From assembly GCF_008933605.1 (NCBI RefSeq), contig NZ_WBUS01000002.1, positions 1 to 64,000 of the forward strand: a DNA stretch of 64,000 nt, written 5' to 3'. This DNA comes from Albidovulum sp. (lineage in GTDB: Bacteria > Pseudomonadota > Alphaproteobacteria > Rhodobacterales > Rhodobacteraceae). This document shows, in pieces, positions 22,436 through 46,839 of the stretch. The notes under the pieces were generated by a model. It was given only the letters and a program-made list of their open reading frames with translations. It searched no databases and was not told where the DNA came from. Position 1 is the stretch's first letter. Each line of letters starts with the position of its first letter. Made by a program: the position numbers and the translations under genes.

Positions 22436-22912
22436 ATGTCCCATTCTACCGCGGAGGCCCCCCAAGGGGATCTCTCTGCGCTGATTTCCGAGCATTCGGG
22501 CGGCGAAGGTCCGCTTTTGCCGATTCTGCATGCCATCCAGGCGGCCTACGGGCACATTCCGCAGGCGGCGATTCCTGTTATCGCCGACGCGCTGAACCTG
22601 ACGAAGGCGGAGGTTCACGGGGTTGTGACCTTCTACCACGACTTCCGCGAGAAGCCCGCGGGACGACATGTCATCAAGCTCTGCCGCGCCGAGGCCTGCC
22701 AGTCGGTCGGCGGGGCGGAACTGGGCGAACGGGTATTGGCAAGGCTCGGGCTGGACTGGGGCGGCACCACGGCAAACGGCGCCGTGACGGTGGAGCCGGT
22801 CTACTGCCTTGGCCTTTGCGCCTGCGGGCCGGCCGCGATGGTGGACGGCAAGGTCGTGGGCCGCGTCGATGACGCGCGGATGGCGAAGATCCTGACGGAG
22901 GCGGGCGCATGA
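22436..22912 (+). CDS. fdsG: NAD-dependent formate dehydrogenase gamma subunit
   Basis: A 158-residue NuoE-like subunit with a thioredoxin-like [2Fe-2S] domain. The four ligands are visible as CRAEAC near residues 82-87 and CLGLC near 123-127. It passes electrons between the FMN subunit FdsB and the rest of the complex. First gene of fdsGBA-fdhD-fdsD; its stop overlaps the fdsB start by 4 bases. The RBS is GGGAGG. Confidence 0.93.
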   Translation: MSHSTAEAPQGDLSALISEHSGGEGPLLPILHAIQAAYGHIPQAAIPVIADALNLTKAEVHGVVTFYHDFREKPAGRHVIKLCRAEACQSVGGAELGERVLARLGLDWGGTTANGAVTVEPVYCLGLCACGPAAMVDGKVVGRVDDARMAKILTEAGA

Positions 22913-24426
22913 AGATCTACATCCCCCGCGACGCGGCCGCCAAGGCGCTTGGCGCCGACGAGGTGGCGTCGGCCGTGGCGACGGAGGCCGCGAAGCGCGG
23001 TCTCGACGTGCAGATCATCCGGAACGGCACCCGCGGCATGATCTGGCTGGAGCCGCTTGTAGAGGTTGACGACGCGCGCGGGCGGCACGCGTTCGGTCCG
23101 GTCGCGCCGGCCGATGTGCCCGCGCTCCTCGACGGCAAGCTCGAAAGCCTCGGTGCGGTAGAGGACATCCCGTTCTTCGCCCGCCAGACCCGGCTCACAT
23201 TCGCGCGCTGCGGGCTGATCGACCCGTTGAGCCTTTCCGACTACGAGGCGCATGGCGGGCTTGCCGGCCTGCGCCGCGCGCTCGGGATGGCGCCGGGCGA
23301 GATCGTGGCGGAGGTCACGGCCTCGGGGCTGCGCGGCCGGGGCGGCGCGGGCTTTCCCACCGGCATCAAGTGGAAGACAGTGGCCGAGGCAACGGCCGAC
23401 CGGAAATACATCGTCTGCAACGCCGACGAGGGCGACAGCGGCACCTTCGCCGACCGCATGATCATGGAGGGCGACCCCTTCACCCTGATCGAGGGCATGG
23501 CGATCGCCGGGGTCGGCACCGGGGCGACGAAGGGGTATGTCTATATCCGTTCCGAATACCCGGACGCCATCGCGGTGATGGAGGCGGCAATCCGCATTGC
23601 CCGCGTCAGCGGGCTGCTCGGGGCGTCCGTCCTGGGCTCGGGCCACCCCTTCGACATGGAGGTGAGGGTGGGCGCCGGCGCCTATGTCTGCGGCGAGGAA
23701 ACCTCGCTTCTCAACTCGCTCGAGGGCAAGCGCGGGATCGTGCGCGCAAAGCCGCCGCTGCCGGCGCTCGAGGGGCTTTTCGGCAAGCCCACCGTCGTCA
23801 ACAACGTGCTCAGCCTCGCCACCGTGCCGGTGATCTTCGAGAAGGGCGCGGCGCATTACGCGGGCTTCGGGCTCGGCCGGTCGAAGGGCACGATGCCGAT
23901 CCAGATCGCCGGGAACGTGAAGCATGGCGGGCTTTTCGAGACGGCGTTCGGCATGCCGCTCAGCGACCTCGTTATCGACATCGCCGGCGGCACCGCCTCG
24001 GGCCGGCCGGTGAAGGCGGTGCAGGTCGGCGGACCGCTTGGCGCCTATATTCCGGTGTCGCAGTTCGACACGCCCTTCGGCTACGAGGAGTTCGACCAGA
24101 AGGGCGGGCTGATCGGCCACGCCGGGATCGTCGTCTTCGACGACACGGCCGACATGCTGAAGATGGCGCGCTTCGCGATGGCGTTCTGCGCCGTGGAAAG
24201 CTGCGGCAAGTGCACGCCCTGCCGCATCGGTTCGGTCAGGGGGGTCGAGACGATCGACCGTATCGCCGCGGGCGATCCGGCGGCGACGGTGATTCTCACC
24301 GACCTTTGTGATACAATGCGCGACGGTTCGCTCTGCGCGCTTGGCGGATTCACCCCGTTTCCGGTCATGTCTGCGCTGAGGCATTTCCCGGACGATTTCG
24401 CACGCCGGAAGGAGGCCGCGGAATGA
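22909..24426 (+). CDS. fdsB: NAD-dependent formate dehydrogenase beta subunit (diaphorase)
   Basis: A 505-residue NuoF-like flavoprotein that passes electrons to NAD. The N-terminal 120 residues form a thioredoxin-like extension. The NAD/FMN site follows (GLRGRGGAGFPTGIKW, then NADEGDSGTF and GAGAYVCGEETSLLNSLEG), and the [4Fe-4S] ligands are in ESCGKCTPCRIGS with a later Cys. It overlaps fdsG and fdsA by 4 bases each, so stoichiometric translation is expected. Confidence 0.95.
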   Translation: MKIYIPRDAAAKALGADEVASAVATEAAKRGLDVQIIRNGTRGMIWLEPLVEVDDARGRHAFGPVAPADVPALLDGKLESLGAVEDIPFFARQTRLTFARCGLIDPLSLSDYEAHGGLAGLRRALGMAPGEIVAEVTASGLRGRGGAGFPTGIKWKTVAEATADRKYIVCNADEGDSGTFADRMIMEGDPFTLIEGMAIAGVGTGATKGYVYIRSEYPDAIAVMEAAIRIARVSGLLGASVLGSGHPFDMEVRVGAGAYVCGEETSLLNSLEGKRGIVRAKPPLPALEGLFGKPTVVNNVLSLATVPVIFEKGAAHYAGFGLGRSKGTMPIQIAGNVKHGGLFETAFGMPLSDLVIDIAGGTASGRPVKAVQVGGPLGAYIPVSQFDTPFGYEEFDQKGGLIGHAGIVVFDDTADMLKMARFAMAFCAVESCGKCTPCRIGSVRGVETIDRIAAGDPAATVILTDLCDTMRDGSLCALGGFTPFPVMSALRHFPDDFARRKEAAE

Positions 24427-27305
24427 AGGACTTCATCATCCCCTGGGACGACCGCGACATGGGAACGCCGGAAAGGCAGGGTGCGCCGGTCACGCTTTCA
24501 ATCGACGGGTTCGAGGTGACGGTGCCCGAGGGCACGTCGGTCATGCGCGCGGCGGCCGAAGCGGGCATCGAGGTGCCGAAGCTTTGCGCGACCGACAGCG
24601 TCGACGCCTTCGGATCGTGTCGCCTCTGCCTGGTGGAGATCGAGGGGCGCAAGGGCACGCCCGCCTCCTGCACCACGCCGGTGGCCCCCGGCATGGTCGT
24701 GCACACGCAGTCCGAAAAGGTGAACCGCCTGCGCAAGGGCGTGATGGAACTCTACGCCTCCGACCATCCGGCGATCGGGCTGACCGACGCCGCCAACGGC
24801 GACAGCGAGTTGCAGAAGATGGCGGCGCGCGTGGGCCTGCGCGAGGTGCGCTACGAGCCGCTCGCCGACCATGTCCACCGGCGGCTGGCCGATGGCACGG
24901 CGAACCCCGACTGGCGCCCCGTCGACGACTCCAACCCGTATTTCACCTACGATCCGGCGAAATGCATCGTCTGCTCGCTCTGCGTGCGCGCCTGCGACGA
25001 AGTCCAGGGCACCTTCGCGCTGACGATCGAGGGGCGGGGCTTCGACAGCCGGATGTCGGCCGGAACCGGTCTTGACGACTACCTCTCCTCCGACTGCGTG
25101 TCCTGTGGCGCCTGCGTCCAGGTCTGCCCGACAGGCAGCCTGCAGGAGAAATCCGTGGCCGAGATGGGCCTGCCCGAGCGGAGCGTCATCACTACCTGCG
25201 CCTATTGCGGGGTCGGCTGCTCGTTCAAGGCCGAACTGCGCGGCGATGAACTCGTCCGCATGGAGCCCTACAAGGGGGGCAAGGCGAACCGCGGCCATTC
25301 CTGCGTGAAGGGCCGTTTCGCCTGGGGCTATGCGACCCACAAGGACCGCATCCTGAGCCCGATGATCCGCGAGACGATAAACGAGCCTTGGCGCGAGGTA
25401 AGCTGGGACGAGGCAATCGGCTTCGCCACAAACCGGCTGAAGGCGATTCAGGAACGGTACGGTCGCAAGTCCGTGGGCGTCATCACCTCGTCGCGCTGCA
25501 CCAACGAGGAGACCTATCTCGTCCAGAAGCTGACGCGCGCGGTGTTCATGAACAACAACACCGACACCTGCGCCCGGGTCTGCCACTCCCCCACCGGCTA
25601 CGGGCTCGGCCAGACCTTCGGCACCTCGGCCGGAACGCAGGACTTCGACAGCGTCGAACACACCGATGTCGTCATCGTCATCGGTGCGAACCCGACCGAC
25701 GGGCACCCGGTCTTCGCCTCGCGGCTGAAGCGACGGCTCAGGCAGGGTGCGCAGCTCATCGTGATCGACCCGCGCCGGATCGACCTCGTGAAGTCGGCCC
25801 ATGTCCGGGCGGCACACCACCTCCAGCTCCGCCCCGGCACCAACGTGGCGGTCGTCTCTGCACTCGCCCACGTGATCGTGGCCGAGGGACTTGCCAACGA
25901 GGCCTTCATCCGCGAGCGCTGCGACTGGGACGAATACCTCACCTATGCCGAGTTCATCCGCGATCCGCGCCACAGTCCGGAGGCGACCGAGGCTCTGACC
26001 GGCGTTCCGGCGGCTGAATTGCGCGCGGCCGCGCGGCTCTTCGCCAAGGGCGGCAACGGGTCGATCTACTACGGGCTCGGCGTGACCGAGCACAGCCAGG
26101 GCTCCACCGCCGTCATGGGGATCGCCAACCTCGCGATGCTCACCGGCAACATCGGCCGCGAAGGCGTGGGGGTGAACCCGCTCCGCGGCCAGAACAATGT
26201 GCAGGGTTCCTGCGACATGGGGTCCTTCCCGCACGAACTGCCGGGCTACCGCCATGTGAAGAACCCCGATGTGCGGGCGATCTTCGAGAAGGCCTGGGGC
26301 GTCGCGATCGACCCCGAGCCGGGCCTGCGGATTCCCAACATGCTCGACGCCGCCGTGGACGGCTCGTTCAAGGGCCTCTACTGCCAGGGCGAGGACATCC
26401 TGCAGTCGGACCCCGACACCAGGCACGTCGCGGCCGGCCTCGCGGCGATGGATTGCGTGATCGTCCACGACCTCTTCCTGAACGAGACGGCGAACTATGC
26501 GCATGTCTTCCTGCCGGGGTCGTCGTTCCTCGAGAAGAACGGGACCTTCACCAACGCCGAGCGGCGCATCAACATGGTGCGCAAGGTGATGGCGCCGAAG
26601 AACGGCTACGAGGACTGGGAGGTGACGCAGCTTCTCGCCAACGCGCTCGGCGCCGGCTGGAATTATACGCATCCTTCCCAGATCATGGACGAGATCGCGG
26701 CCACCACGCCGTCGTTCGCCGGCGTGACCTATGACCTCATCGACCGCATGGGATCCGTCCAGTGGCCCTGCAACGAGAAGTCGCCCGAGGGCACGCCGCT
26801 GATGCACGTCGACGGTTTCGTGCGCGGAAAGGGCCGGTTCATCGTGACCGAGTATCTCGCCACGGATGAAAAGGCCGGGCCGCGCTTCCCGCTCCTGCTC
26901 ACGACGGGGCGAATCCTCAGCCAGTACAACGTCGGCGCGCAGACAAGGCGCACGGCGAACACCGTATGGCACGATCAGGACCTGCTGGAGATCCATCCCC
27001 ACGACGCCGAGAACCGCGGCATCAAGAACGGCGACTGGGTGCGGCTCGCCTCGCGTTCGGGCGAGACGACGCTCAGGGCGAAGGTGACGGACCGGGTTGC
27101 CCCGGGCGTGGTCTACACGACCTTCCACCACCCCGACACCCAGGCCAACGTCGTCACCACCGACTTCTCCGACTGGGCGACGAACTGCCCGGAATACAAG
27201 GTGACGGCGGTGCAGGTGGGCCGGTCGAACGGGCCGTCCGACTGGCAGGAGGACTACGCAGCGCAAGCCGCCAACTCGCGCCGCATCCTGCCCGCGGCGG
27301 AGTAG
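24423..27305 (+). CDS. fdsA: NAD-dependent formate dehydrogenase alpha (molybdenum) subunit
   Basis: 960 residues. Domains in order: an N-terminal [2Fe-2S] domain (CATDSVDAFGSCRLC), the place of a NuoG-type His/Cys3 cluster, two [4Fe-4S] motifs (CIVCSLCVRAC, CVSCGACVQVC), a further cluster (CAYCGVGC ... SCVKGRFAWG), then the bis-MGD molybdopterin domain with catalytic cysteine in CARVCHSPTGYG. It oxidises formate to CO2. Odd: after SDHP the three cysteines usual in the His/Cys3 motif are absent (HPAIGLTDAANGDSELQ), so one cluster is probably missing. Cysteine, not selenocysteine, is used. Confidence 0.95.
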   Translation: MKDFIIPWDDRDMGTPERQGAPVTLSIDGFEVTVPEGTSVMRAAAEAGIEVPKLCATDSVDAFGSCRLCLVEIEGRKGTPASCTTPVAPGMVVHTQSEKVNRLRKGVMELYASDHPAIGLTDAANGDSELQKMAARVGLREVRYEPLADHVHRRLADGTANPDWRPVDDSNPYFTYDPAKCIVCSLCVRACDEVQGTFALTIEGRGFDSRMSAGTGLDDYLSSDCVSCGACVQVCPTGSLQEKSVAEMGLPERSVITTCAYCGVGCSFKAELRGDELVRMEPYKGGKANRGHSCVKGRFAWGYATHKDRILSPMIRETINEPWREVSWDEAIGFATNRLKAIQERYGRKSVGVITSSRCTNEETYLVQKLTRAVFMNNNTDTCARVCHSPTGYGLGQTFGTSAGTQDFDSVEHTDVVIVIGANPTDGHPVFASRLKRRLRQGAQLIVIDPRRIDLVKSAHVRAAHHLQLRPGTNVAVVSALAHVIVAEGLANEAFIRERCDWDEYLTYAEFIRDPRHSPEATEALTGVPAAELRAAARLFAKGGNGSIYYGLGVTEHSQGSTAVMGIANLAMLTGNIGREGVGVNPLRGQNNVQGSCDMGSFPHELPGYRHVKNPDVRAIFEKAWGVAIDPEPGLRIPNMLDAAVDGSFKGLYCQGEDILQSDPDTRHVAAGLAAMDCVIVHDLFLNETANYAHVFLPGSSFLEKNGTFTNAERRINMVRKVMAPKNGYEDWEVTQLLANALGAGWNYTHPSQIMDEIAATTPSFAGVTYDLIDRMGSVQWPCNEKSPEGTPLMHVDGFVRGKGRFIVTEYLATDEKAGPRFPLLLTTGRILSQYNVGAQTRRTANTVWHDQDLLEIHPHDAENRGIKNGDWVRLASRSGETTLRAKVTDRVAPGVVYTTFHHPDTQANVVTTDFSDWATNCPEYKVTAVQVGRSNGPSDWQEDYAAQAANSRRILPAAE

Positions 27306-27307
27306 CG

Positions 27308-28129
27308 ATGGCGTTTGCGCCGACGGTCAGCGCGAAGGGCGTCGCCGTCCATCCGGACGGCACATGCGCCGTGACGCGAACCTTGCCGGAGGAGGTGCCG
27401 GTTGCCTTTGTCTTCGACGGCACCACCCAAGCGGTGATGATGGCGACCCCCGCCGACATCGAGGACTTCGCGGTCGGTTTCGCGCTGTCCGAAGGCATCG
27501 TGGCACATGCGGCCGAGATCACCGAGATCGAGGTCGTCGAGCACGGACCGGGCATCGAGGCGCGGATGTGGCTCACCGACGACCGGGCCGAGGCGCTGGC
27601 CAGGCGCCGCCGCGCGGCGGCCGGGCCGGTCGGTTGCGGGCTCTGCGGTATCGACAGCCTTGACGAGGCCGTCCGCCCGCTGCCGCGGATCGCCGCCGGG
27701 CCGTCGGTGCTGACAGCAGCCGAGCTTGCCGGTGCCGCCGATGTATTGCGCGCGCGCCAGCCGCTCCACGACCAGACCCGCGCCGTCCATGCCGCGGCCT
27801 TCCTCGCCCCCGGCGAAGGCATCGTCGCGGTACGGGAGGACGTGGGCCGGCACAATGCCCTCGACAAACTGGTCGGCGCGATGGCGCGGGCGGGACGCGC
27901 CATGGCCCGCGGCGCAGTGGTGATGACCTCGCGCCTTTCGGTCGAACTCGTGCAGAAATGCGCGCTCGCCGGATGCCCGGTCATCCTTTCCGTCTCCGCC
28001 CCCACCGCGCTTGCCCTCAGGCAGGCGGAAGCCGCCGGGATCACGCTTGCAAGCTTTGCCCGCACCGGCGGGTTCGACCTTTATTCACATCCTGAACGCA
28101 TCAATGCCGGAGCCGCCGATGTCGCCTGA
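27308..28129 (+). CDS. fdhD: Formate dehydrogenase accessory sulfurtransferase FdhD
   Basis: A 273-residue chaperone that delivers sulfur to the molybdenum cofactor before insertion into FdsA. Its conserved CxxC is in GCGLCGID near residue 117, and the C-terminal VREDVGRHNALDKLVGA and SVELVQKCALAGCPV motifs fit FdhD (FdsC). It begins 2 bases after the fdsA stop and overlaps fdsD by 11 bases. The track ORF starts inside fdsA and its first 114 residues are shadow. Confidence 0.93.
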   Translation: MAFAPTVSAKGVAVHPDGTCAVTRTLPEEVPVAFVFDGTTQAVMMATPADIEDFAVGFALSEGIVAHAAEITEIEVVEHGPGIEARMWLTDDRAEALARRRRAAAGPVGCGLCGIDSLDEAVRPLPRIAAGPSVLTAAELAGAADVLRARQPLHDQTRAVHAAAFLAPGEGIVAVREDVGRHNALDKLVGAMARAGRAMARGAVVMTSRLSVELVQKCALAGCPVILSVSAPTALALRQAEAAGITLASFARTGGFDLYSHPERINAGAADVA

Positions 28130-28337
28130 GAAGATGGTCCACATGGCCAACCAGATCGCCGCCTTCTTCAAGAGCCAGCCCGGCGCCGACGCGGCCGAGC
28201 GGGTCGCCGCGCATCTTTCCGATTTCTGGGAACCGCGGATGCGGGCGCAGCTTCTGGCCTACATTGCCGAGGGCGGGGCCGGGCTCGATCCCGTGGCTAT
28301 CGCGGCGGCGCAACGGCTGAAGCCCGTCGCGGCCTGA
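28119..28337 (+). CDS. fdsD: Formate dehydrogenase delta subunit
   Basis: 72 residues, starting MSPEKMVHMANQIAAFFKSQPG with RVAAHLSDFWEPRMRAQLLAYI, the FdsD family pattern. FdsD is a small last-gene subunit of fds operons needed for full activity. The ATG at 28119 has CCGGAG 11 bases upstream; an earlier ATG at 28104 would add five residues. It overlaps the fdhD end. Confidence 0.85.
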   Translation: MSPEKMVHMANQIAAFFKSQPGADAAERVAAHLSDFWEPRMRAQLLAYIAEGGAGLDPVAIAAAQRLKPVAA

Positions 28338-28453: not shown

Positions 28454-30496
28454 CTATCGCTGCGATGCACCCGTCCCGCCAACGACCACGTGTTCGCGCC
28501 AGATCATGAGATCCTGCGGCCGGGCGAGATGGGCGCGCCCGGCGCGGTGGCCATCGTGGACGGCATGGGCGATCAACCCCGGCGCACGCGCGTCGCCCAC
28601 CCGTTCCAGAGTTGCAAGTCCTGCATCCCTGAGTGCCAGCCACAGCCCGTCGCGCGGCTCGCGCGAGGTGACGGGGACGAAGCCCGCGCAATCGATCTGC
28701 GACCGCTGCCCGGTGAACGCGCAGGCCAGTTCGGCCACGCCCGGCGTCAGGCCCGTGACGATGCTCGACGTTACGATCCGCACCCCGCGCTCGAGCAGCA
28801 GAGCCTGGAGCCGCGGCTGTTCTGTGGTGAAGACCGACCATTCGGCCGCGACCCCGCCCGGCGTGACATAGGTCACTTCCAGCCCCTCGCCCGCCAGCAG
28901 CACGGCGATGGCGGCCGCGATATGGTACTGCTCGTCGTCGAAGATCACCGCCGGCCCATCCGGCCGCGCGCCGCGCAGGATCTGGTCGGGCGTGAGGGTG
29001 CGCGGGCCGGCGAAGCTTGCGACCCCGGCCGGATGGCTGCGGCCGCGCCCGTCGGCGCGCCAGAGGCTGCCGGTCGCCACCAGCACGTGCCGCACGCCCG
29101 TCTCCAGCACCGCGGTGCGGTCCATCTCGGAGGCCCGGTAAAGCTCAACCTGTGCCAGCTTGCCGATCTGGTGGACGCGCCAGTCGCGGACCCGCGCCCA
29201 TTCGGAAAGCCCCGGCAACGAGGATTCGAGCGTTACGCGCCCGCCCGGTTCGTCCGCCGCCTCGGCCAGCATCACCGGCACGCCGCGGCGACCGAGCGTC
29301 AGCGCCGCCTCGAGCCCCGCAGGCCCGGCGCCGACAACCAGCACCGGATCGGCACGACCCACCGCCGCGGGCGCCTTCTCCGGGTGCCAGCCGCGCCGCC
29401 ATTCCTCGCCCATCGTCGGGTTCTGGGTGCAGCGGATCGGTGCGCCGAGCCAGTCATGCGCATAGCAGATATTGCAGCCGATGCATTCGCGGATGTCGTC
29501 GAGCCGGCCCTCGCGGATCTTGGCCGGCAGGAACGGATCGGCGATCGAGGGGCGCGCGGCGCCGACGAAGTCGAGGATGCCGCGGCGGACCTGGCCCAGC
29601 ATCGTCTCCGGGCTGGTGAAACGACCGACGCTGACCACGGGTTTCCCAGTCACCGCCCTGACATGGGCCACGTGGTCCTCCAGCGTCGCCTCCTTCACGA
29701 AGCGCGACGGACCCATCTCGTGCCCGTAGTCCGGAACCGTGACGTCGAAGAGGTCGACGAAGGGGGCGATCTGCGCGAGGAGGGCGGAGCGTTCCTCCTT
29801 GCCCACGCCGGCCTCGTCATAGACCTCGATCCGCGTCGCAAGGGCGGCGCGATCGCCAAGCACCTCGCGGGTCTCCGCCACGAGATCGAGATAGAGACGC
29901 GCCCTGCCCGCCGCGTTGCCGCCGTAGTCGTCCGTCCGCCGGTTGGTCGAGGCGTCGAGGAACTGGGTCACCAGATAGGTGTGCGCGGCATAGACATAGA
30001 TGATGTCGAACCCGGCCGCGAGCGCACGCCGCGCCGCCGCCCGGTGCCAGTCGCGGAGGTTCGTAATGTCCTGCCGGTCCATCCGCTGGCATTGCCAGGG
30101 ATTTCGCTCGGCCATCGTGCTGTCCGGACCGAGCGGAGTCTCGCGGGTGAGCGCGTTCGACGACCGCTGGCCACCGTGCCAAAGCTCCACTCCCGCAAGC
30201 GCGCCATGCGCATGGACCGCCTCGGTCATGGCAGCGTGGTTTCTCACGTCGCCCTCGTCCCAGAGCGAGGCATAGGGTGCGTGCGTGTCGTCCGATGTGG
30301 GATGGATCGAACAGTATTCGCTGTTCACCACGCCCCAGCCACCCTCGGCCTTCAGCCCTCGCATGGCGGCAAGAGTGTGCGGGTGGATGTTGCCCATGCC
30401 AGTACAGTGCGGCACCTGGTAGAAGCGGTTCGGCGCGGTGACGGGGCCGATCCGCACCGGCTCGAACAGGATGTCAAAGCGAGGGTCGCGGGTCAT
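28454..30496 (-). CDS. Trimethylamine-dehydrogenase-type flavoprotein
   Basis: 680 residues, the full length of TMADH/DMADH enzymes: an Old Yellow Enzyme TIM barrel (1-360), one [4Fe-4S] site (CIGCNIC ... C), then FAD/ADP-type Rossmann domains (VLVVGAGPAGLEAAL). NRFYQVPHCTG keeps the cysteine that carries 6-S-cysteinyl FMN in TMADH. Aligned by memory with the Methylophilus enzyme, Tyr60 (SEYCSIHP), Tyr169 and His172 (YVYAAHTY) are kept. The 264-267 segment EWGED is DYGHE here, so Trp264 and Asp267 are changed. It probably oxidatively N-demethylates an amine to formaldehyde, perhaps not trimethylamine. It is downstream of the mttB-like gene (12-base gap). Confidence 0.85.
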   Translation of the reverse strand: MTRDPRFDILFEPVRIGPVTAPNRFYQVPHCTGMGNIHPHTLAAMRGLKAEGGWGVVNSEYCSIHPTSDDTHAPYASLWDEGDVRNHAAMTEAVHAHGALAGVELWHGGQRSSNALTRETPLGPDSTMAERNPWQCQRMDRQDITNLRDWHRAAARRALAAGFDIIYVYAAHTYLVTQFLDASTNRRTDDYGGNAAGRARLYLDLVAETREVLGDRAALATRIEVYDEAGVGKEERSALLAQIAPFVDLFDVTVPDYGHEMGPSRFVKEATLEDHVAHVRAVTGKPVVSVGRFTSPETMLGQVRRGILDFVGAARPSIADPFLPAKIREGRLDDIRECIGCNICYAHDWLGAPIRCTQNPTMGEEWRRGWHPEKAPAAVGRADPVLVVGAGPAGLEAALTLGRRGVPVMLAEAADEPGGRVTLESSLPGLSEWARVRDWRVHQIGKLAQVELYRASEMDRTAVLETGVRHVLVATGSLWRADGRGRSHPAGVASFAGPRTLTPDQILRGARPDGPAVIFDDEQYHIAAAIAVLLAGEGLEVTYVTPGGVAAEWSVFTTEQPRLQALLLERGVRIVTSSIVTGLTPGVAELACAFTGQRSQIDCAGFVPVTSREPRDGLWLALRDAGLATLERVGDARAPGLIAHAVHDGHRAGRAHLARPQDLMIWREHVVVGGTGASQR

Positions 30497-30508
30497 CCGG
30501 TTTCCATT

Positions 30509-32005
30509 CTAAGGTGTCGCATGCGCTTCGTGGATCATGCGGAGCCGGGCGAGCAGACCGGCCGGCAACGGTTCCGGCCCCGGCGCCGAAAGCCGCTGCC
30601 TCAGGTCGCGGTCGATCCGCTGAAAGAGGGTCTCGTCGGGCTTGTCCGAACTTGAAACCGGTTCGTTTCCGGCGAAGTACCGGCTGGCCCAGAGGTTCTT
30701 CCGGCAATGCCGTGCGGTATGCTCGTGGCCAAGCACGGTGCCCGTCAATCCGACCTCACGCAGAAGGTCGAGCGCCAGCGTGTCGTCGCTGACCTCGGTC
30801 CCCGTCCAGAGGGTTCGCAGCATCCCGGCGTAATCGTCGCAGAGCAGGAGCGCGTGCAGCGAGTACGTGATCCCCTGATCGAGCGATCCGAGGTAGTCGC
30901 AGGTCGCCGGCCGGGTGTGGAAGAACTGGCCCATCAGCGTGGCGATCTCGAAAACCGCATCCTGGCCGAAGCGGCGCGCCCGCGCCTCGCCGCCGATCCC
31001 GGTGAGGGAGGGAAGGCCCAAGTGCCGGCGCGCCTGGCAGATGAGTTGCTCGGCCAGCATCGTCTGCGGCATATTGCCGATGCCGCCCGTCGCCGGCTCC
31101 ATGAAATAGGGGTTGGTGGAGCCGATGCAGAAGCTGCCCTCGCGCGCCGCCTGACCCAGCACCATCCCCGCGAAATCGGTGGCGAGGCACTGCACGACCG
31201 TGCCCGCCGTGGTTATCGGCGTCGAGGCTCCGCCGATGGCGAGTGAGCCGACGCTCAACGGCACGCCGGCGCGCGCTGCGAGGATCACCTGCTCGACATG
31301 AGTCTCGGCGTAGTAGAGCGGCAATGGCGTGACGATGTGCAGGAAATAGGGCATCTCTGCGAGCCTGTCGTGCCCGCCCCTGAGCGCCGCCGCCATCTCG
31401 ATTGCGGCTTCCAGCGAGCGGGTCCATTCGCAGAGGTATTCGAGCGGCTTGGTGGTGTGCTCCATCATGCAGAGGAATTCGCCGATCTCGCCCCGGAGGG
31501 TCGACTCCGGAACGTCCTTGCAGGCCACGCAAACCGCGTCGATGTTGTCGAGCCCATCGGCGATGCGGCTGATCGTGGCGAGGTCCGCGCGCGTGCTGTC
31601 GCGCGGTTCGCCGGTTGCCTCGTCGAACACCTTGATGCAGGTCATGCCGGGCATGAACCAGGTATGATGCGCGTCGATGTCGATGGCGCGGGTTCCGTCA
31701 CGGTTCCAGAGCTGGACGGCCTTCGCCACGGTCGCAAGCGCCCGCCGGACGACGACCGCAGGCATTCGCACCACGCCGTCGGGCAGGACCGTGCATCCGG
31801 CCTGCGCGAGCAACGCGTCCGCCTCGGTGCCCGGCTCGAAGCGCAGGCCGATTTCGGCAAGCAGCGTCAGGGCGGCATCAACGACCCGCTCCGTGTCTGC
31901 AGGCGCGATCGTGTCATACGGGCGGCTCGAAATCGAATGGAGGCCGCGAACATGTGTTGCAGCGGCTTCCGGCGCGTTGCGTTGGCGTTGCATGGCGCGG
32001 CGCAT
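30509..32005 (-). CDS. MttB-superfamily methyltransferase (non-pyrrolysine)
   Basis: 498 residues from ATG 32005 (AGGGACG nine bases upstream). The sequence has the trimethylamine methyltransferase (MttB) barrel pattern: TLLAEIGLRFEP, WFMPGMTCIKVFDEATGEPRDS, EYLCEWTRS, GASTPITTAGTVVQ, ATGGIGNMPQTMLAEQL, and the tail RKNLWASRYF. There is no in-frame UAG, so it does not use pyrrolysine. Characterised non-Pyl members demethylate quaternary amines such as glycine betaine. No corrinoid protein gene is nearby. It heads an operon with the TMADH-like gene. Confidence 0.85.
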   Translation of the reverse strand: MRRAMQRQRNAPEAAATHVRGLHSISSRPYDTIAPADTERVVDAALTLLAEIGLRFEPGTEADALLAQAGCTVLPDGVVRMPAVVVRRALATVAKAVQLWNRDGTRAIDIDAHHTWFMPGMTCIKVFDEATGEPRDSTRADLATISRIADGLDNIDAVCVACKDVPESTLRGEIGEFLCMMEHTTKPLEYLCEWTRSLEAAIEMAAALRGGHDRLAEMPYFLHIVTPLPLYYAETHVEQVILAARAGVPLSVGSLAIGGASTPITTAGTVVQCLATDFAGMVLGQAAREGSFCIGSTNPYFMEPATGGIGNMPQTMLAEQLICQARRHLGLPSLTGIGGEARARRFGQDAVFEIATLMGQFFHTRPATCDYLGSLDQGITYSLHALLLCDDYAGMLRTLWTGTEVSDDTLALDLLREVGLTGTVLGHEHTARHCRKNLWASRYFAGNEPVSSSDKPDETLFQRIDRDLRQRLSAPGPEPLPAGLLARLRMIHEAHATP

Positions 32006-32551
32006 GACTCGTCCCTCCATCGGGTTGCAGTCATGTTGATTATCAGGTCAGTCAAAATATAACAATCCACATCGTTGCGGGCCGCAGACGCGTCGTCCGT
32101 TCAGTGTGCCACACGGGAATCTGGGCCAGTCGTCTCCGCCGCGGCTGCATGGACAGCCCGCCGACCGCAGTCGAGGCCAGCGCACAGCGCGCGCCGGACC
32201 CTTCCGCTGGCTGGGTCGATAGAGCATCCCCAACCCCACCGGGGAGGATTTCACATGCCGTCTACCGCTCGGGTCCGGCTGAACCTGCTGCCGCTGTCGA
32301 GCCGAGGGGTCGTGGAACCGTTGCCGAACCGCGGCCCATTCGTCGCCTCGCTCACGGTTGAAATGGCGCGCGCGATGATCGAGCCGAATGTCGCCCGGCC
32401 AGCCGCCGAGCGCGCGACAGCAAGAAGGCTGCCACGCCGGTGGCGCTCCACCTCGTCGATATCCAGCACTACCTTGAGCTCGGCAGTCGCGCGATGCGCC
32501 GACAGACCGCGCCCCGATATGCCGCAGGCGGAGCTGGTATCGCGGGACCGA
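32006..32551. other. Intergenic region upstream of the mttB-like gene
   Basis: This 546-base stretch separates the mttB-like start from the glycerate kinase stop. An AT-rich patch at 32034-32068 probably holds the mttB-like promoter; on the minus strand TTGTTA and TAATCA lie 17 bases apart. The remainder (32100-32551) is GC-rich and open in several frames, but none has family-like sequence or a convincing ribosome-binding site. An ATG at 32254 with GGGGAGG nine bases upstream opens a plus frame that runs on through the kinase shadow. It may be the remnant of a lost gene. Confidence 0.4.
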
Positions 32552-33817
32552 TCATCGGTCTCGCGGCGACATCCCGGGCGGTCCGAGGAGCAGGATCTGA
32601 ACGTCGGCCACGTTCGTTCCCGTCGGTCCCGTGACCAGCAGGTCACCCGCCAAGGCCAGTGCCCGGTGGCTGTCGTTGTCGGCCAGGAGGGCATCGACAT
32701 CCGCGCCGGAACCGGCGATCCGCGCCAGCGTGCCCGCATCGACGACCCCGCCCGCGGCATCGGTCGGCCCGTCGCGCCCGTCGGTCCCGCCAGAGAGGAA
32801 GACCCAGTCGCGTCCGAGATCGGGCATCGCCCGCGCGACCCTGAGGGCCAGTTCCTGATTGCGGCCGCCCTGCCCGGTTCCGCGCAGCGTCACGACGGTT
32901 TCGCCGCCGAAGATGAGACAGCGCGCCTGCCCCGCCTCGCGGGCCGCAGCGACGATCGCTTCGGCGGCATCGCCAACGTCCCCGGTGAGGGAATCGGAGC
33001 AGATTGCGGCCCCCGGTCCGGCGGCGCGCACCGCCTCGAGGCTCTTCAGGTTCGACCCGATCAGGACATTGGTCAGAGCGGGCAAGGGCTCGGCCGGGTC
33101 GGGCCGGCTCAGCGCGGCCTGCACGCTGCGGGGCAGGCCGGACCAGAGGTCGTGGCGCCGCAGCATCGCGCGCGCGTCGGCCCGGGTACCAATGGGCGAT
33201 ACCGTCAGCCCCGAGGCGATGACGCGCAGGTCGTCCCCGATCACGTCGGAGAGGATATAGGCCGTGACCGGGGCCGGCGCGGCGACCCTGAGGAGCCCGC
33301 CGCCCTTCAGCCGCGAGAGTGACTGGCGCACCATGTTCATCCCGGCGATGTCGAGCCCGCCCGCCAGAAGGAGGCGGCTCGCCGCCGCCTTGTCGGCCAG
33401 CGACACCCCCGCGACCGGCGCAGGCAGGAGCGCCGAGCCTCCGCCGGAAATCAGTGCCACCACGCGGTCGGCCGCCGATGCCCCCCGCAGCAGCGCCTCG
33501 ACCGCCTCGGCCGCCCGCGCGCCGTTCTCGTCGGGCACCGGATGGCCCGCCGCATGAACCTCGGCCCCGGCGACGGGTCGGGCGTTCTCGTAGTTCGTGA
33601 CGACGATCGCCGCGACTTCGGTGCCGCCGCAGGCCCGAAGCAGGGTTTCGGCCATCGGCACGGCCGCCTTGCCGACGGCGATGACAAGCAGCCGCCCGCC
33701 CGGGTCCGGGCGGGGCAGCGGCGTCTCCTCCAAAGCGCGGGACAGCGCGACACCTGGATCGGCCGCCCAGCAGGCGACCGAAAAGAGTTCGCGTATCCTG
33801 GCGCGCAAGTCCTCCAT
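32552..33817 (-). CDS. Glycerate 2-kinase, MOFRL type
   Basis: A 421-residue class II glycerate kinase. The N-terminal domain has LLVIAVGKAAVPMAE, and ALISGGGSALLPAPV is the nucleotide/substrate loop. The C-terminal MOFRL domain has GGETVVTLRGTGQGGRNQELAL and SGGTDGRDGPTDAAGG. In the serine cycle it phosphorylates glycerate, usually to 2-phosphoglycerate on the way to PEP. It starts 4 bases after the malyl-CoA lyase stop. ATG 33817 is used; the track's extra 22 residues are not conserved-looking. Confidence 0.9.
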   Translation of the reverse strand: MEDLRARIRELFSVACWAADPGVALSRALEETPLPRPDPGGRLLVIAVGKAAVPMAETLLRACGGTEVAAIVVTNYENARPVAGAEVHAAGHPVPDENGARAAEAVEALLRGASAADRVVALISGGGSALLPAPVAGVSLADKAAASRLLLAGGLDIAGMNMVRQSLSRLKGGGLLRVAAPAPVTAYILSDVIGDDLRVIASGLTVSPIGTRADARAMLRRHDLWSGLPRSVQAALSRPDPAEPLPALTNVLIGSNLKSLEAVRAAGPGAAICSDSLTGDVGDAAEAIVAAAREAGQARCLIFGGETVVTLRGTGQGGRNQELALRVARAMPDLGRDWVFLSGGTDGRDGPTDAAGGVVDAGTLARIAGSGADVDALLADNDSHRALALAGDLLVTGPTGTNVADVQILLLGPPGMSPRDR

Positions 33818-33821
33818 CGGC

Positions 33822-34799
33822 TCAGGCCCCGGCGATCTGGCGGGCCTTCTGGACCAGCACCTCCGCCTGCCGGATCGAGGCATAGTCGATCAGCCGGCCG
33901 TCGAGCGAGACCGCTCCCTTGCCCTCGGCCGCAGCCTTTTCCATCGCCTCCAGGATGCGCTTGGCCCGTGTGACCTCGGCCTCGGACGGGCTCATCACCT
34001 CGTTCGCTAGCGTGATCTGGCTGGGATGGATCGCCCATTTGCCCTCGCAACCCAGCACCGCCGCGCGCTTCGCCGCCGCGCGGTAGCCGTCGGGGTCGGA
34101 GAAATCGCCGAAGGGGCCGTCGACCGGTCGCAAGCCGTTGGCCCGCGCCGCGACGACCATGCGCGCCAGCGCATAGTGCCACATGTCGCCCCAGTGCACG
34201 GCCCGGCTGCCGTCGGCCAGCGGATCGGTCAGCACCGTGTAATCCGGGTTCACGCCACCGATGATCGTCGTCCGCGCCCGAGTCGATGCCGCATAGTCGG
34301 CCACCCCGAAATGCAGGCTTTCGTTGCGTGGCGAGGCCGCGGCGATCTCTGACACGTTCTGCATGCCGAGCGCGGTCTCGATGATGTGCTCGAAGCCGAT
34401 GCGCTTCTTCAGGCCCATGGCGTCCTCGATCTGCGTCACCAGCATGTCGACGGCATAGACATCCGCGGCGGTGCCGACCTTCGGAATCATGATTAGATCA
34501 AGCCGCGCCCCGGCCTCTTCCACCACTTCGACCACGTCGCGGTACATGTAGTGCGTGTCCAGCCCGTTGATTCGGACCGACATGGTTTTCGTGCCCCAGT
34601 CGATCTCGTTCAGGGCCTTGATGATGTTCTTGCGGGCCTGCGGCTTGTCGTCCGGGGCGACGGCATCCTCGAGGTCGAGGAAGATCACGTCGGCGTCCGA
34701 TTTCGCCGCCTTCTCGAACATCTGCGGGGCGCTGCCGGGAACGGCGAGTTCACTCCGGTTCAGGCGCGCGGGCGCCTGCTGGATCACGTGGAAAGACAT
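33822..34799 (-). CDS. L-malyl-CoA lyase (CitE-like)
   Basis: 325 residues of the HpcH/CitE aldolase family. Diagnostic elements are RSELAVPGSAPQMFEKA, DVIFLDLEDAVAPDDK, the catalytic Glu in FEHIIETALGM and LHFGVADYAAS. The length and sequence fit rhodobacterial malyl-CoA/beta-methylmalyl-CoA lyase (Mcl1) and serine-cycle MclA. It splits malyl-CoA to acetyl-CoA and glyoxylate, closing the cycle. It is followed immediately by glycerate kinase and preceded by a palindromic site and the response regulator gene. Confidence 0.93.
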   Translation of the reverse strand: MSFHVIQQAPARLNRSELAVPGSAPQMFEKAAKSDADVIFLDLEDAVAPDDKPQARKNIIKALNEIDWGTKTMSVRINGLDTHYMYRDVVEVVEEAGARLDLIMIPKVGTAADVYAVDMLVTQIEDAMGLKKRIGFEHIIETALGMQNVSEIAAASPRNESLHFGVADYAASTRARTTIIGGVNPDYTVLTDPLADGSRAVHWGDMWHYALARMVVAARANGLRPVDGPFGDFSDPDGYRAAAKRAAVLGCEGKWAIHPSQITLANEVMSPSEAEVTRAKRILEAMEKAAAEGKGAVSLDGRLIDYASIRQAEVLVQKARQIAGA

Positions 34800-35547: not shown

Positions 35548-35847
35548 TTCTCCTCCTCCCTACCCGAATTGGCGGGTCACACTTCGCTGCATCGCGGCGA
35601 GACCACCCATTAGGGTGGGATATTCCCCGCCAGAATAGATTTCCAAAAGCAGGATATAGGAGTGTTGCGACCCGTGTCCAGAACCGCTTTCCTCAGCGCC
35701 AGGACAGCCGGTTCCGGTATGATCCGCGACCGGTTCTCCGCTGCACCCGGGCCGGTCGCGGCACCTGCCCAGGCGGCCGTCCGGCCCGATTCCGGCCCCG
35801 TCCGGTGGGGGCCAGGCGCGAGATTCTTGACCAGCAAGGGTTGCACG
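35548..35847. promoter_or_regulatory. Divergent control region of the serine-cycle locus
   Basis: A 300-base spacer between the response regulator and the aminotransferase. CCACCC and GGGTGG form perfect arms at 35603-35618. Overlapping them, GGGA-TAT-TCCC sits at 35617-35627. GGCGGG at about 35571 and CCCCGCC at 35625-35631 add further GGYGGG-type half-sites. An AT-rich stretch (about 35620-35665) follows and could be the promoter. The track ORF start at 35662 lies in this region, but its 62 leading residues are not enzyme-like. Confidence 0.5.
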
Positions 35848-37095
35848 ATGACCGAGTCCGATATCTTCCCGCAACTGACGATCCCGGAAACCCTCGCCGC
35901 GGGCCCAGGCCCCGGAAACACCGATGCGCGGGTGCTGGCGAGTTTCGCCAGTGCCGGCCTTGCGGACCACATGCAGGCCGACGTTCTGCGCGGAATGATC
36001 GAATGCAAGCTGATGCTCCGCAGGGTCTGGGGCACGCGGAACGTCCATACCTTCGGCGTCGCCGGCACCGGCTGGAGCGGGCTCGACAGTCTCTTCAGCG
36101 CGATCCTGCCGGGCGACACGGTCGTGGCCTTCGTCAACGGCACCTTCAGCGGCATCGACGCGCTTACCGTGCGGATGAAGGCGGCCGGTCGCGCCGACCT
36201 TGCCGCCGCCCCGCTCGACCCGCGGCCCGCCAACGTCACCGTCATTACCGTGCCGCACGGCCAGTCCGTGACCGCCGATGTGATCGAGACGGCGCTGGCC
36301 GACAGGAAGCCGACCTGGGCGGTCATGGCGCATTGGGAGACCGGCTCGGGCCGGATCAACGACCTGCGCGCCTTCTCGGACGCCTGCGAACGGCACGGTG
36401 TCATGGGACTTGTCGATGCGGTCTCCTCGCTTGGCATCGCCGATTTTGATATCGACGACTATCCCGGTGTCGCGGGCTGGGCATCCTGCCCGCAGAAGGG
36501 TGTGCTCTGCCTGCCGCTCACCTATGCGCCCGTCAGCTTCACCGACCGCTACATCGCGCATCTGCGGGCGAACGGCTGCCACAGCTACGTCCACCACCCC
36601 GTCCTGGAGGCCCGTCACTGGGGCATTCTCGACGGCAAGGACGCCGCCGCGGGCACCTATCACCGCACCCATTCCGGCTACGCCGTGGCCGCGTTCCACG
36701 AGGCGCTCAGGATCAACCTGCAGCACGGCAAGGCGCAGAAGGCGCGAGACTATGCCTGGCACGAAGCGGCTCTCACGAAGGCGGTGAAGGCGCTTGGCTG
36801 CAACGTCACCTCCAACATGACGAGCCTTGTCGTGCTGAACCTTCCGCCGGCGCTTGCGGGGCGCGAAAAGGAGCTTGTGCAGATGTGCCGCGCCCGGGGC
36901 TTCGGCATCTGGACGACCCTGTCCGAGCCGGTGCAGATCAGGATCGGCATCCTCAACCAGCTCAGCGAGGCCGCCATCACCGACATCGTCGAACGCTTCG
37001 CCGCGGCGATGAACGCGATGGGCGCGGGCGCCGACACTGCCGCCGCGCGAGAGGCGCTGCGCGGCCACTACCTGACGAGAATGGCCGCCGAGTGA
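35848..37095 (+). CDS. Class V aminotransferase, probable serine-glyoxylate aminotransferase
   Basis: 415 residues, fold-type I class [15 protein letters not shown] is the N-terminal family motif, [13 protein letters not shown] and [10 protein letters not shown] hold the PLP-contacting Asp, and [11 protein letters not shown] contains the likely PLP lysine. Its place ahead of mtkAB-hpr-ppc matches sga, which turns serine and glyoxylate into hydroxypyruvate and glycine. Its sequence is visibly unlike Methylobacterium SgaA as I remember it, so assignment rests mainly on context. ATG 35848 has AAGGG upstream. Confidence 0.75.
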
Positions 37096-37117
37096 GCCGG
37101 GGCCGAGGGAGGCGAGA

Positions 37118-38314
37118 ATGGACATTCACGAATACCAGGCCAAGGAAATCCTGGCGAAGTTCGGCGTTGCGGTACCGCCAGGTGCGCTCGCCTACAGTCC
37201 CGAGCAGGCTGCCTACCGTGCCCGCGAACTTGGAGGAAACCGCTGGATCGTGAAGGCGCAGGTCCATGCCGGCGGCCGCGGCAAGGCCGGGGGCGTCAAG
37301 CTCTGCCGGTCCGAGCACGAGATCCAGGACGCCACGAACGAGATGTTCGGCCGAAAGCTGGTGACGCACCAGACGGGAGCCGAGGGCAAGGGCATCTACC
37401 GGGTCTATGTCGAGGGCGCCGTCGAATTCACCCGCGAGATCTACCTCGGGCTGGTGCTCGACCGTTCATCGCAGCGGGTGATGATCGTCGCCTCCTCGGA
37501 AGGCGGGATGGAGATCGAGGAAATCTCGGCCAAAAGGCCCGACTCCATCGTCCGGTCGACCGTCGAACCGGCCGTGGGTCTGCAGGAATTCCAGGCGCGC
37601 GAGATCGCCTTCTCGCTCGGGATCCCGGCCGCGCTCATCCCGCAGATGGTGCGGACCCTGCAGGGCTGCTACCGCGCCTTCCGCGACCTTGACGCCACCA
37701 TGGTGGAGATCAACCCGCTGGTGATCACCGCCGACAACCGCATCCTTGCGCTCGATGCGAAGATGACCTTCGACGGCAACGCGCTGTTCCGTCACCCCCA
37801 GATCGCCGAACTGCGCGACAAGAGCCAGGAAGACCCGCGCGAAAGCCGGGCGGCGGACAGGGGGCTGGCCTACATCGGCCTGACCGGCAACATCGGCTGC
37901 ATCGTCAACGGCGCGGGCCTTGCCATGGCGACGATGGACACGATCAAGCTGGCCGGGGGGGAGCCCGCCAACTTCCTCGACATCGGCGGCGGCGCCACGC
38001 CGGAACGGGTGGCCAAGGCCTTCCGTCTCGTCATGTCGGACGAGAACGTCGAGGCGATCCTCGTCAACATCTTCGCCGGCATCAATCGCTGCGACTGGGT
38101 GGCGGAAGGTGTGGTGCAGGCGCTGACTGCGAACCCGGTGGACGTGCCGGTGATCGTGCGCCTCTCTGGCACCAACGTCGAGGAAGGCCAGAAGATTCTC
38201 GCCAAGTCCGGCCTGCCGATCATCCGCGCCAACACGCTGATGGAAGCGGCGGAGCGCGCCGTGACCGCGTGGAAGAACGACCGCAAACAGAACACCAGGA
38301 TGAGGGCCATCTGA
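37118..38314 (+). CDS. mtkA: Malate-CoA ligase beta subunit
   Basis: A 398-residue ATP-grasp subunit homologous to Suc[51 protein letters not shown] and [13 protein letters not shown] are the family blocks. Together with mtkB it makes malyl-CoA from malate, CoA and ATP. Distinguishing it from succinyl-CoA synthetase rests on location between the aminotransferase and hydroxypyruvate reductase and the presence of malyl-CoA lyase. Its stop shares one base with the mtkB start (TGATG). Confidence 0.9.
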
Positions 38315-39207
38315 TGAGCATCCTTCTCGACCGATCCAGCCGCGTCGTGGTGCAGGGCATCACCGGCCGCATGGCGCAGTTCCACACCAAGGAGATGCTC
38401 GACTACGGCACCAATGTCGTCGCCGGCGTGGTGCCCGGCAAGGGCGGCGAAACGGTCTTCGGCGTGCCGGTCTTCAATACGATGAAGGAGGCCGTCGCCG
38501 CGACCGGCGCCGATTCCAGCCTGGTCTTCGTGCCGCCGCCCTTCGCCGCGGACAGCATCATGGAGGCGGCCGACGCCGGCATCCGCTACTGCGTCTGCAT
38601 CACCGACGGCATCCCGGCGCAGGACATGATCCTGGTGAAGCGCTACATGTTGCGCTATCCGCGCGACCGCCGGATGGTGCTCACGGGGCCGAACTGCGCC
38701 GGCACGATCAGCCCCGGCAAGGCGCTTCTGGGCATCATGCCCGGCCACATCTACCTCGCCGGCAATGTCGGCATCGTCAGCCGCTCGGGCACGCTCGGCT
38801 ACGAGGCGGCACAGCAGCTGAAGGACCGCGGCATCGGCGTCTCGACCTCGGTCGGGATCGGCGGCGACCCGATCAACGGATCGTCCTTCCGCGACATCCT
38901 CGAACGCTTCGAGACCGACCCCGAGACCCGCGTCGTCTGCATGATCGGCGAGATCGGCGGGCCGCAGGAGGCCGAGGCCGCCGCCTATATCCATGAGCAC
39001 ATGACGAAGCCGGTCATCGCCTATATAGCGGGCCTGACCGCCCCCAAGGGCCGCACCATGGGCCACGCCGGCGCGATCATCTCGGCCTTCGGGGAAAGCG
39101 CCTCGGAGAAGGTCGAGATCCTGACCGCGGCGGGCGTCACGGTGGCCGAGCATCCATCGGTCATCGGCGAGACGGTGGCGCGGGTACTCGCCAAGCGGGC
39201 AGCCTGA
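38314..39207 (+). CDS. mtkB: Malate-CoA ligase alpha subunit
   Basis: 297 residues homologous to SucD. It has the CoA-binding [19 protein letters not shown], the [11 protein letters not shown] segment, [12 protein letters not shown], and the phospho-histidine in [12 protein letters not shown]. It partners MtkA. ATG 38314 overlaps the mtkA stop by one base, so the pair is translationally coupled. The track start at 38269 lies inside mtkA. Confidence 0.9.
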
Positions 39208-39220
39208 AGGGGAGGACGCG

Positions 39221-40189
39221 ATGACGAAACCCAAGGTCCTGGTGACGCGGCGGTGGCCCCGGGCGGTCGAGCGGCGGATGGAAGAGGTCTTCGACCTCGA
39301 CCTCAACACCTCCGACGCGCCGCTGACAGAGGCCGACCTGTGCGCGGCGCTGGGCCGCTACGACGCGATCCTGCCGACCGTCACCGACCGCCTTCCGGCG
39401 GCGGTCTTCGACGCCGCGCCGCGCACGCGGATACTGGCCAATTACGGCGTGGGCTTTTCGCACATCGACACCGAGGCCGCAAAGGCGCGCGGCATCGCCG
39501 TGACCAACACGCCCGACGTCCTGTCGGAATGCACCGCCGACATCGCGATGACGCTCCTGCTCATGGTCGCCCGCCGCGCCGGCGAGGGCGAGCGGGAACT
39601 CCGCGAAGGCCGCTGGACCGGCTGGCGACCGACGCACATGATCGGCACCAAGGTTTCCGGCGCGACGCTCGGCATCATCGGGTTCGGCCGCATCGGGCAG
39701 GCGATGGCGCAGCGGGCGCATCTCGGCTTCGGCATGAAGATTCTCGTGCAGAACCGCTCTCCGGTCCCGGCCGAAATGCTGGCGCGTTACAGCGCCGTGC
39801 AGGTTCCGACGGTGGAGGAGCTCTTGCCCCAGTGCGATTTCGTTTCGCTGCACTGCCCCGGCGGCAAGGCCAATCGGCACCTGATCAATAGTCGCCGGCT
39901 CGACCTCATGCGCCCCGGCGCCTTCCTCATCAACACCGCGCGCGGCGAGGTCGTGGACGAACACGCACTGGCGCAGGCGCTGTGGTTCGGCACCATCGGC
40001 GGCGCCGGTCTCGACGTCTTCGAGCGCGAACCGCGAATTCCCGAAGAGCTTCTCGGCGCCGACAACGTCGTGCTGCTGCCGCATCTCGGCTCGGCCACGC
40101 GCGAAACGCGCGAGGCGATGGGCTTCCGCGTGCTGGAGAACCTGACCGACTTCTTCGGCGGCCGCGCACCGCGCGACCGGGTCGCCTGA
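39221..40189 (+). CDS. Hydroxypyruvate reductase (D-2-hydroxyacid dehydrogenase)
   Basis: 322 residues. The Rossmann motif is GFGRIGQAMAQRA near residue 153. NRSP follows strand 2, a pattern that suggests NADPH preference over NADH. The catalytic Arg is in NTARGEVVDE, Glu in FEREPRIP and His in LLPHLGSAT. In the serine cycle it reduces hydroxypyruvate to glycerate. Glyoxylate reduction is also likely. It sits 13 bases after mtkB and 3 bases before ppc. Confidence 0.88.
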   Translation: MTKPKVLVTRRWPRAVERRMEEVFDLDLNTSDAPLTEADLCAALGRYDAILPTVTDRLPAAVFDAAPRTRILANYGVGFSHIDTEAAKARGIAVTNTPDVLSECTADIAMTLLLMVARRAGEGERELREGRWTGWRPTHMIGTKVSGATLGIIGFGRIGQAMAQRAHLGFGMKILVQNRSPVPAEMLARYSAVQVPTVEELLPQCDFVSLHCPGGKANRHLINSRRLDLMRPGAFLINTARGEVVDEHALAQALWFGTIGGAGLDVFEREPRIPEELLGADNVVLLPHLGSATRETREAMGFRVLENLTDFFGGRAPRDRVA

Positions 40190-40192
40190 ACC

Positions 40193-43340: not shown

Positions 43341-43484
43341 CGTCGCCGGGATCGACCTGCGGCGGCGGTCGGGGTTCGGTTTCCGCCGTCGCGGCCTTGT
43401 CGAGGCGAGCTTGCCCCGCGTTCGCCCCCCCTCTGGACCGCCGCGCCCCTTCGCCCTAGCCTCGGCGCCAGGAAGGGGCCCGGC

Positions 43485-45234: not shown

Positions 45235-45238
<4 letters not shown>
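44426..45238 (+). CDS. Oligopeptide/dipeptide ABC transporter permease (DppC type)
   Basis: 270 residues with the DppC pattern [23 protein letters not shown], six helices and the EAA-like loop [23 protein letters not shown]. It pairs with the preceding permease to form the membrane channel. Its stop overlaps the ATPase start. The track ORF starting at 43685 is shadow up to residue 247. Confidence 0.92.

Positions 45239-46822
<1,584 letters not shown>

Positions 46823-46839
<17 letters not shown>

Follow-up and report, generated by a model that had tools for sequence, protein, structure and literature searches.

A linked MttB homologue and TMADH-family flavoenzyme in Albidovulum sp. as a candidate module for quaternary-amine demethylation

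Gene pair and translation start

The window analysed here is a stretch of 64,000 nucleotides from Albidovulum sp. (assembly GCF_008933605.1, contig NZ_WBUS01000002.1, positions 1 to 64,000). Two neighbouring genes on its reverse strand code for a non-pyrrolysine homologue of the methyltransferase MttB and for a flavoenzyme of the trimethylamine dehydrogenase (TMADH)/histamine dehydrogenase family (Table 1). An earlier reading, made without database searches and here called the sequence-only reading, had described the pair as an MttB-family methyltransferase next to an active-site-altered TMADH-like enzyme. Both open reading frames (ORFs) were found where this reading had placed them, including the MttB start at position 32005. 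The longest ORF of the MttB homologue (30509-32020, reverse strand) reaches past the ATG at this position. The translation start is nevertheless probably 32005 rather than 32020, because GGAGGGACGAG is located just 5' of the ATGCGC at 32005; near homologues likewise start with MRR. The MttB gene lies 12 nt upstream of the flavoenzyme gene on the same strand, and from this arrangement the two genes likely form one transcription unit.

Family and active site of the flavoenzyme

Members of the TMADH/histamine dehydrogenase family carry flavin mononucleotide (FMN) on a cysteine as well as a 4Fe-4S cluster, and consist of a barrel similar to that of old yellow enzyme plus nucleotide-binding domains. 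The flavoenzyme of the window has the fold of this family together with Cys30, the cluster ligands Cys345, Cys348, Cys351 and Cys364, Tyr169, His172 and Arg222. Its best sequence match in the PDB is histamine dehydrogenase 3k30 (E-value 1.5e-185, 48% identity), while TMADH (1djn) ranks lower among the PDB matches (1.7e-157, 41% identity). The AlphaFold model (pLDDT 89.3) yielded TM-scores of 0.96 to 3k30 and 0.94 to TMADH, and of 0.92-0.96 in a comparison with the A chains of 3k30, 6de6 and 2tmd. Judged by sequence and modelled structure, the flavoenzyme is nearer to histamine dehydrogenase than to TMADH.

Residue numbers follow TMADH and were rebuilt on its PDB sequence. The twelve positions tested there (C30, Y60, Y169, H172, R222, W264, D267, C345, C348, C351, C364 and W355) were all as expected, so that the numbering used in the sequence-only reading was correct. 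The alignment also bears out the retention of the FMN-linking Cys, the cluster ligands, Tyr60, Tyr169 and His172 stated there; Glu103, Trp105 and Arg222 are likewise shared with TMADH. The altered segment around positions 264 and 267 was found again, with W264 replaced by Tyr and D267 by Glu (VPDYGHEMGPSR vs IGDIAEWGEDAGPSR of TMADH). The third residue of the aromatic bowl, W355, is also absent, which the sequence-only reading did not mention; its position is gapped and the local motif reads CYAHDWLG. In addition, insertions of three residues and of one residue present in TMADH are missing.

The loop between the third and the fourth cluster Cys comprises 11 residues, compared to 12 in TMADH. 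This shortening had been listed among the peculiarities of the enzyme and is true in relation to TMADH, but 81 of the 82 aligned sequences have 11 residues, both histamine dehydrogenases among them, and TMADH alone has 12. The short loop was thus rejected as a special alteration, TMADH being the outlier. The term 'active-site-altered' therefore holds for W264Y and D267E, which are clade-wide, and not for the loop, which is the family norm.

A quick maximum-likelihood tree, built from 81 sequences, places the 31 with the combination Tyr264/Glu267 on one side of a branch with an SH-aLRT value of 99. Based on these sequences, the two replacements are a fixed clade feature and not the decay of a single gene. 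TMADH falls outside the Tyr/Glu clade, its exact place being uncertain due to its long branch. Two of the three bowl aromatics are altered or lost throughout the clade; the flavoenzyme hence does not align as a TMADH with an intact aromatic bowl and is probably not an ordinary TMADH. The matches to TMADH at C30, Y60, E103, W105, Y169, H172 and R222 would agree with an ordinary trimethylamine or dimethylamine dehydrogenase lying next to a paralogous methyltransferase. In view of the clade-wide W264Y, D267E and loss of W355, and of the position of TMADH outside the clade, uncertain in detail as it is, we consider this explanation very improbable.

Histamine dehydrogenases (3k30, 6de6) are the best match in both structure and sequence and share the cofactor Cys, the cluster Cys, Tyr169/His172 and the loop length with the flavoenzyme, which differs from them in having Tyr60 for Gln, Trp105 for Ala, Tyr264 for Trp and Glu267 for Asp/Cys. 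Histamine dehydrogenases are marked by Gln60, the Trp264 equivalent and an Asp at the 354/358 position (PMC10180351), and only the Asp of the CYAHD motif is present in the flavoenzyme of the window. Saturation mutagenesis of Trp263 and of the triad residues Asp265 or Asp354 in the histamine dehydrogenase of Rhizobium left nearly all clones inactive (PMC10180351). These positions therefore matter, and it is reasonable to infer a different substrate for the Tyr/Glu clade.

The related flavoprotein StcD is the N-methylproline demethylase of stachydrine catabolism (PMC12239276). As a near relative of the flavoenzyme it was ruled out: the sequence used, assigned on pSymB of S. meliloti by replicon, family and length and not by locus tag, is 28% identical, lacks a Cys at the FMN-linking position 30 and belongs to another branch.

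MttB homologue

With 184.5 bits against PF06253 (cut-off 25), the methyltransferase is a member of the MttB superfamily. Its score against TIGR02369, the equivalog model of pyrrolysine-containing MttB, is 208.8 bits and falls below the cut-off of 525. The ORF has no in-frame stop, and a Glu, at a site variable among homologues, aligns with the pyrrolysine position; the non-pyrrolysine status assigned previously is thereby supported. The AlphaFold model (pLDDT 79.6) has TM-scores of 0.79-0.83 to MttB and MtgB structures, the Foldseek values being 0.83 for 7xcl and 0.81 for 9yce. Aligned by structure, the MttB homologue and MtgB share about 21% identity. Within its own genome, which codes for seven MttB homologues, the protein is a deep branch with approximately 20-26% identity to its paralogues. 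The enzymes of the superfamily characterised so far act on quaternary amines or trimethylamine, and methyl-tetrahydrofolate (methyl-H4F) is formed in bacteria (PMC8604678).

Methyl acceptor system

The assembly has a size of 3.66 Mb in 299 contigs and is 98% complete. The statement that no corrinoid protein is encoded nearby holds for the window. A search of the genome yielded exactly one B12-binding_2 protein, of MtgC type, on another contig. The sequence-only reading had also assumed an unknown methyl acceptor, which does not agree with the gene content: MtgC, MtgD, RamA, DUF1638 and a MetF homologue, the components for MtgBCD-type methyl transfer to H4F, are all present (Table 1). A Pfam search of the MetF-like ORF gave no match.

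The same set passes the methyl groups of glycine betaine to tetrahydrofolate in Ruegeria pomeroyi, where it also serves methionine synthesis (PMC12478193). Both genomes hold a Pfam06253 methyltransferase, a corrinoid protein, a pterin-binding methyltransferase, a MetF homologue, RamA and DUF1638, and in both the demethylation genes are scattered over several loci. Unlike the MtgB-MtgC-MtgD system of Ruegeria, the MttB homologue of the window is deep-branching and paired with a TMADH-family flavoenzyme. In Eubacterium limosum, the three non-pyrrolysine MttB homologues MtpB, MtcB and MtyB share a single, separately encoded corrinoid protein and a tetrahydrofolate methyltransferase (PMC8604678); this organism differs in being an anaerobe, and the passages considered here mention no paired flavoenzyme.

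Among 11 examined genomes with the MttB homologue or the flavoenzyme, all 11 have an MtgC orthologue (79-100% identical). Owing to the precedents in Ruegeria and Eubacterium and to this co-occurrence, a distant corrinoid gene can be regarded as normal, and the acceptor is probably of an already known type (MtgC to H4F), with MtgC as the inferred partner of the MttB homologue. Transfer to an acceptor of a still unknown kind would fit the lack of a corrinoid gene within the window; considering the full MtgC/MtgD/RamA-type set, the presence of MtgC in all of these genomes and the usual separate encoding of the corrinoid protein (PMC8604678, PMC12478193), it is extremely improbable. In locus L172 (G327:C18), another MttB-flavoenzyme pair has an MtgC-type corrinoid gene (93%) at a distance of about 6 kb.

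Recurrence of the pair

About 800 genomes were scanned for the MttB subfamily of the window. Relatives with more than 50% identity are rare and were found in six other genomes (G021, G366, G130, G005, G723 and a metagenome-assembled genome (MAG) of Hyphomicrobiales), while a scan of contigs with the MttB homologue found one Hyphomicrobiales MAG only. In five of the six loci, a Tyr/Glu flavoenzyme is adjacent to MttB or at most 6 kb away. The pair of G021 (L048) is 78% and 85% identical to that of the window. Two tandem MttB genes (61% and 76%) lie directly upstream of the flavoenzyme in G366 (L067:8276-11341), and linked genes are also present in G130 (L068), G005 (L049) and G723 (L070). Across the six genomes with linkage, including that of the window, MttB identity ranges from 54 to 78%. 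The gene surroundings differ between loci, and the linkage is therefore not merely one long inherited segment.

For an independent estimate, 61 loci of the family were chosen by flavoenzyme similarity alone, regardless of MttB. An MttB gene was present within 2 kb in 15 of them, always on the same strand and in 14 cases within 500 bp. These partner counts, like those below, are lower bounds, since the simple gene caller may miss genes under antisense ORFs and the Rieske references comprised three sequences. With 5 to 15 MttB genes per genome, 0.65-2 such loci are expected, which rules out chance adjacency.

A count by clade covered all 77 loci, among them those selected on other grounds. MttB was within 2 kb of the flavoenzyme gene in 4 of 31 Tyr/Glu loci, 5 of 29 of the Trp-type and others, 4 of 4 of the clade Ala30/Tyr60/His172/Leu264/Asp267 and 10 of 13 of the clade Ala30/Ala60/Met172/Ser264/Asp267. 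Linked MttB proteins elsewhere are as low as 20-25% identical to that of the window. As far as these sequences go, the pairing recurs and involves more than one flavoenzyme clade and more than one MttB subfamily. The 13-member clade, whose ten MttB-linked loci are L161, L162, L167-L169, L172, L175, L177, L178 and L184, shows a more drastic change of the active site, with loss of the FMN-linking Cys, Tyr60 replaced by Ala and His172 by Met. Tandem TMADH-family genes, one with Tyr/Glu and one or two with Trp/Asp and Glu60, were observed in L137, L138, L139, L144, L145 and L147; perhaps these encode successive steps of one pathway.

The pairing of MttB with TMADH-type enzymes was not found described in the open-access literature searched. 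All families involved are known, and their combination seems to be the new part.

Genomic context

The pair is surrounded by genes of one-carbon (C1) metabolism (Table 1). For the convergent fds region, FdhD was assigned by NCBIfam and FdsD by PF11390, whereas the other subunits were read from sequence.

Table 1 Features of the window and of the methyl transfer system in the same genome
Feature	Position	Strand	Basis or remark
TMADH/histamine-dehydrogenase-family flavoenzyme, Tyr264/Glu267 clade, 680 aa	28454-30496	-	ORF list, PDB search, alignment
Non-pyrrolysine MttB-superfamily methyltransferase, 498 aa	30509-32005	-	PF06253, TIGR02369, structural model
12-nt spacer, MttB stop (TAG) to flavoenzyme start	30497-30508	-	Sequence
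Glycerate 2-kinase	32552-33883	-	Upstream of MttB; NCBIfam best match, below equivalog cut-off
Malyl-CoA/CitE-type lyase	33822-34799	-	Upstream of MttB; NCBIfam best match, below equivalog cut-off
Serine-cycle genes: class V aminotransferase, hydroxypyruvate reductase-like, phosphoenolpyruvate carboxylase	35662-42856	+	NCBIfam
Malate thiokinase-like pair	37118-39207	+	Two subunits read from sequence
NAD-dependent formate dehydrogenase fds genes, FdhD, FdsD	22436-28337	+	Convergent with the pair
MtgC/MtbC-type corrinoid protein	L009:17302-18009		Adjoins DUF1638 gene
MtgD-type methyl-H4F:corrinoid/iron-sulfur protein methyltransferase (PF00809)	L054:9545-10504		NF005719, 405.7 bits, cut-off 259
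MetF homologue	Directly upstream of MtgD-type gene		PDB match 7xg9, 1.5e-51
RACo-type activase (RamA)	L055:3853-5943		Family match

Just after ppc, an ORF at 42948-44429 (forward strand) starts with a glyA remnant, approximately 75 aa that match serine hydroxymethyltransferase (PF00464 model positions 191-278), and continues as a dipeptide-ABC permease. Dipeptide-type ABC ATPases, two aldehyde dehydrogenases, an SDR, a peptidase S58 and a NodS-like S-adenosylmethionine-dependent methyltransferase follow at 45079-53185 (forward strand), 13-21 kb from the pair; a peptidase S58 gene also adjoins the second MttB in L049.

In other genomes, a serine hydroxymethyltransferase gene lies beside a 71% orthologue of the flavoenzyme (L127), and a DAO-GcvT fusion gene is present in L125. 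The BetI model was the best NCBIfam match, below cut-off, of all eight linked TetR genes tested. Together with the clade-wide changes of the bowl, these BetI-like neighbours leave a methylated amine other than trimethylamine, as proposed in the sequence-only reading, the best guess for the substrate.

One subclade of the flavoenzyme occurs in similar clusters that also encode an ABC transporter, whose binding protein is of the spermidine/putrescine type, two FAD oxidoreductases and, in several, a GcvT-like protein. These clusters hold either a Rieske oxygenase (L059, L141, L142), MttB (L049, L068) or both (L070). Stc2 is the Rieske-type first demethylase of stachydrine. The corresponding enzyme for glycine betaine is GbcAB (PMC12478193). 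The exchange of Rieske oxygenase and MttB in otherwise similar clusters suggests that the first demethylation falls to MttB and a later one to the flavoenzyme.

Proposed function

Taken together, we favour on balance the reading that the pair removes two N-methyl groups in succession from a quaternary, betaine-like amine, a view derived from sequence comparison. In the first step, the MttB homologue would take a methyl group off the quaternary nitrogen and load it onto the Co(I) corrinoid carried by the sole MtgC-type protein. The MtgD-type enzyme would hand this methyl group to tetrahydrofolate, and oxidation of the methyl-H4F would fall to the MetF homologue, while the RamA-type activase and DUF1638 would hold the corrinoid reduced. 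In the second step, the flavoenzyme would use the FMN on Cys30 and its 4Fe-4S cluster to demethylate the resulting tertiary amine oxidatively, giving a secondary amine and formaldehyde, the latter being the established product of TMADH chemistry. Because the pocket has Tyr264, Glu267 and no Trp355, with Tyr60 kept, a substrate other than trimethylamine would be expected. The C1 units, methyl-H4F and formaldehyde, could then be used by the formate dehydrogenase and the serine cycle encoded nearby.

Several observations weigh against this proposal. Within the window, no transporter gene directly adjoins the pair. Neither an MttB gene nor a recognised Rieske gene was found within 6 kb of 22 of the 31 Tyr/Glu members, including orthologues with 71-75% identity (L125-L128), and the flavoenzyme therefore needs no linked partner. 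At locus L050 of the Hyphomicrobiales MAG (MttB 69%), the 7-10 kb of flanking sequence retrieved contain no flavoenzyme gene. The two enzymes could thus be neighbours with separate substrates, MttB acting with MtgC on a betaine of its own and the flavoenzyme on an unrelated tertiary amine. However, six genomes with varied surroundings and MttB identities of 54-78% keep the linkage, and the family-wide frequency is far above expectation, which makes separate substrates distinctly unlikely.

Among proteins of solved structure, the flavoenzyme is closest to histamine dehydrogenase (48% identity, TM-score 0.96) and 6-HPON amine oxidase, neither of which is a demethylase, and several linked transporters are of the spermidine/putrescine type. 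This would fit a histamine-dehydrogenase-type deaminase of a primary or secondary amine, with MttB only stripping methyl groups from the methylated form. We consider such a role rather unlikely, as Tyr60 and E103/W105 are those of TMADH, whereas histamine dehydrogenases have Gln60 and Ala105, and the association with MttB or Rieske oxygenases, like that with C1 genes, points to demethylation.

Two successive demethylations by the pair, if correct, would offer a testable role for the non-pyrrolysine MttB homologues and for the TMADH-like flavoenzymes of Rhodobacteraceae-type bacteria. Both groups are large and for the most part uncharacterised, and they would be tied together as steps one and two of a single pathway. 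The Tyr264/Glu267 clade also lends itself to testing how substrate choice is determined by the TMADH pocket. As a more tentative generalisation, possible rather than probable at present, MttB and TMADH-family flavoenzymes may form a recurrent, hitherto undescribed two-step quaternary-amine demethylation module of aerobic alphaproteobacteria. MttB would here take the place of the O2-dependent Rieske oxygenase as first demethylase. In that case the first methyl group would be retained as methyl-H4F and no O2 would be spent, which would bear on the turnover of betaines by marine and soil bacteria.

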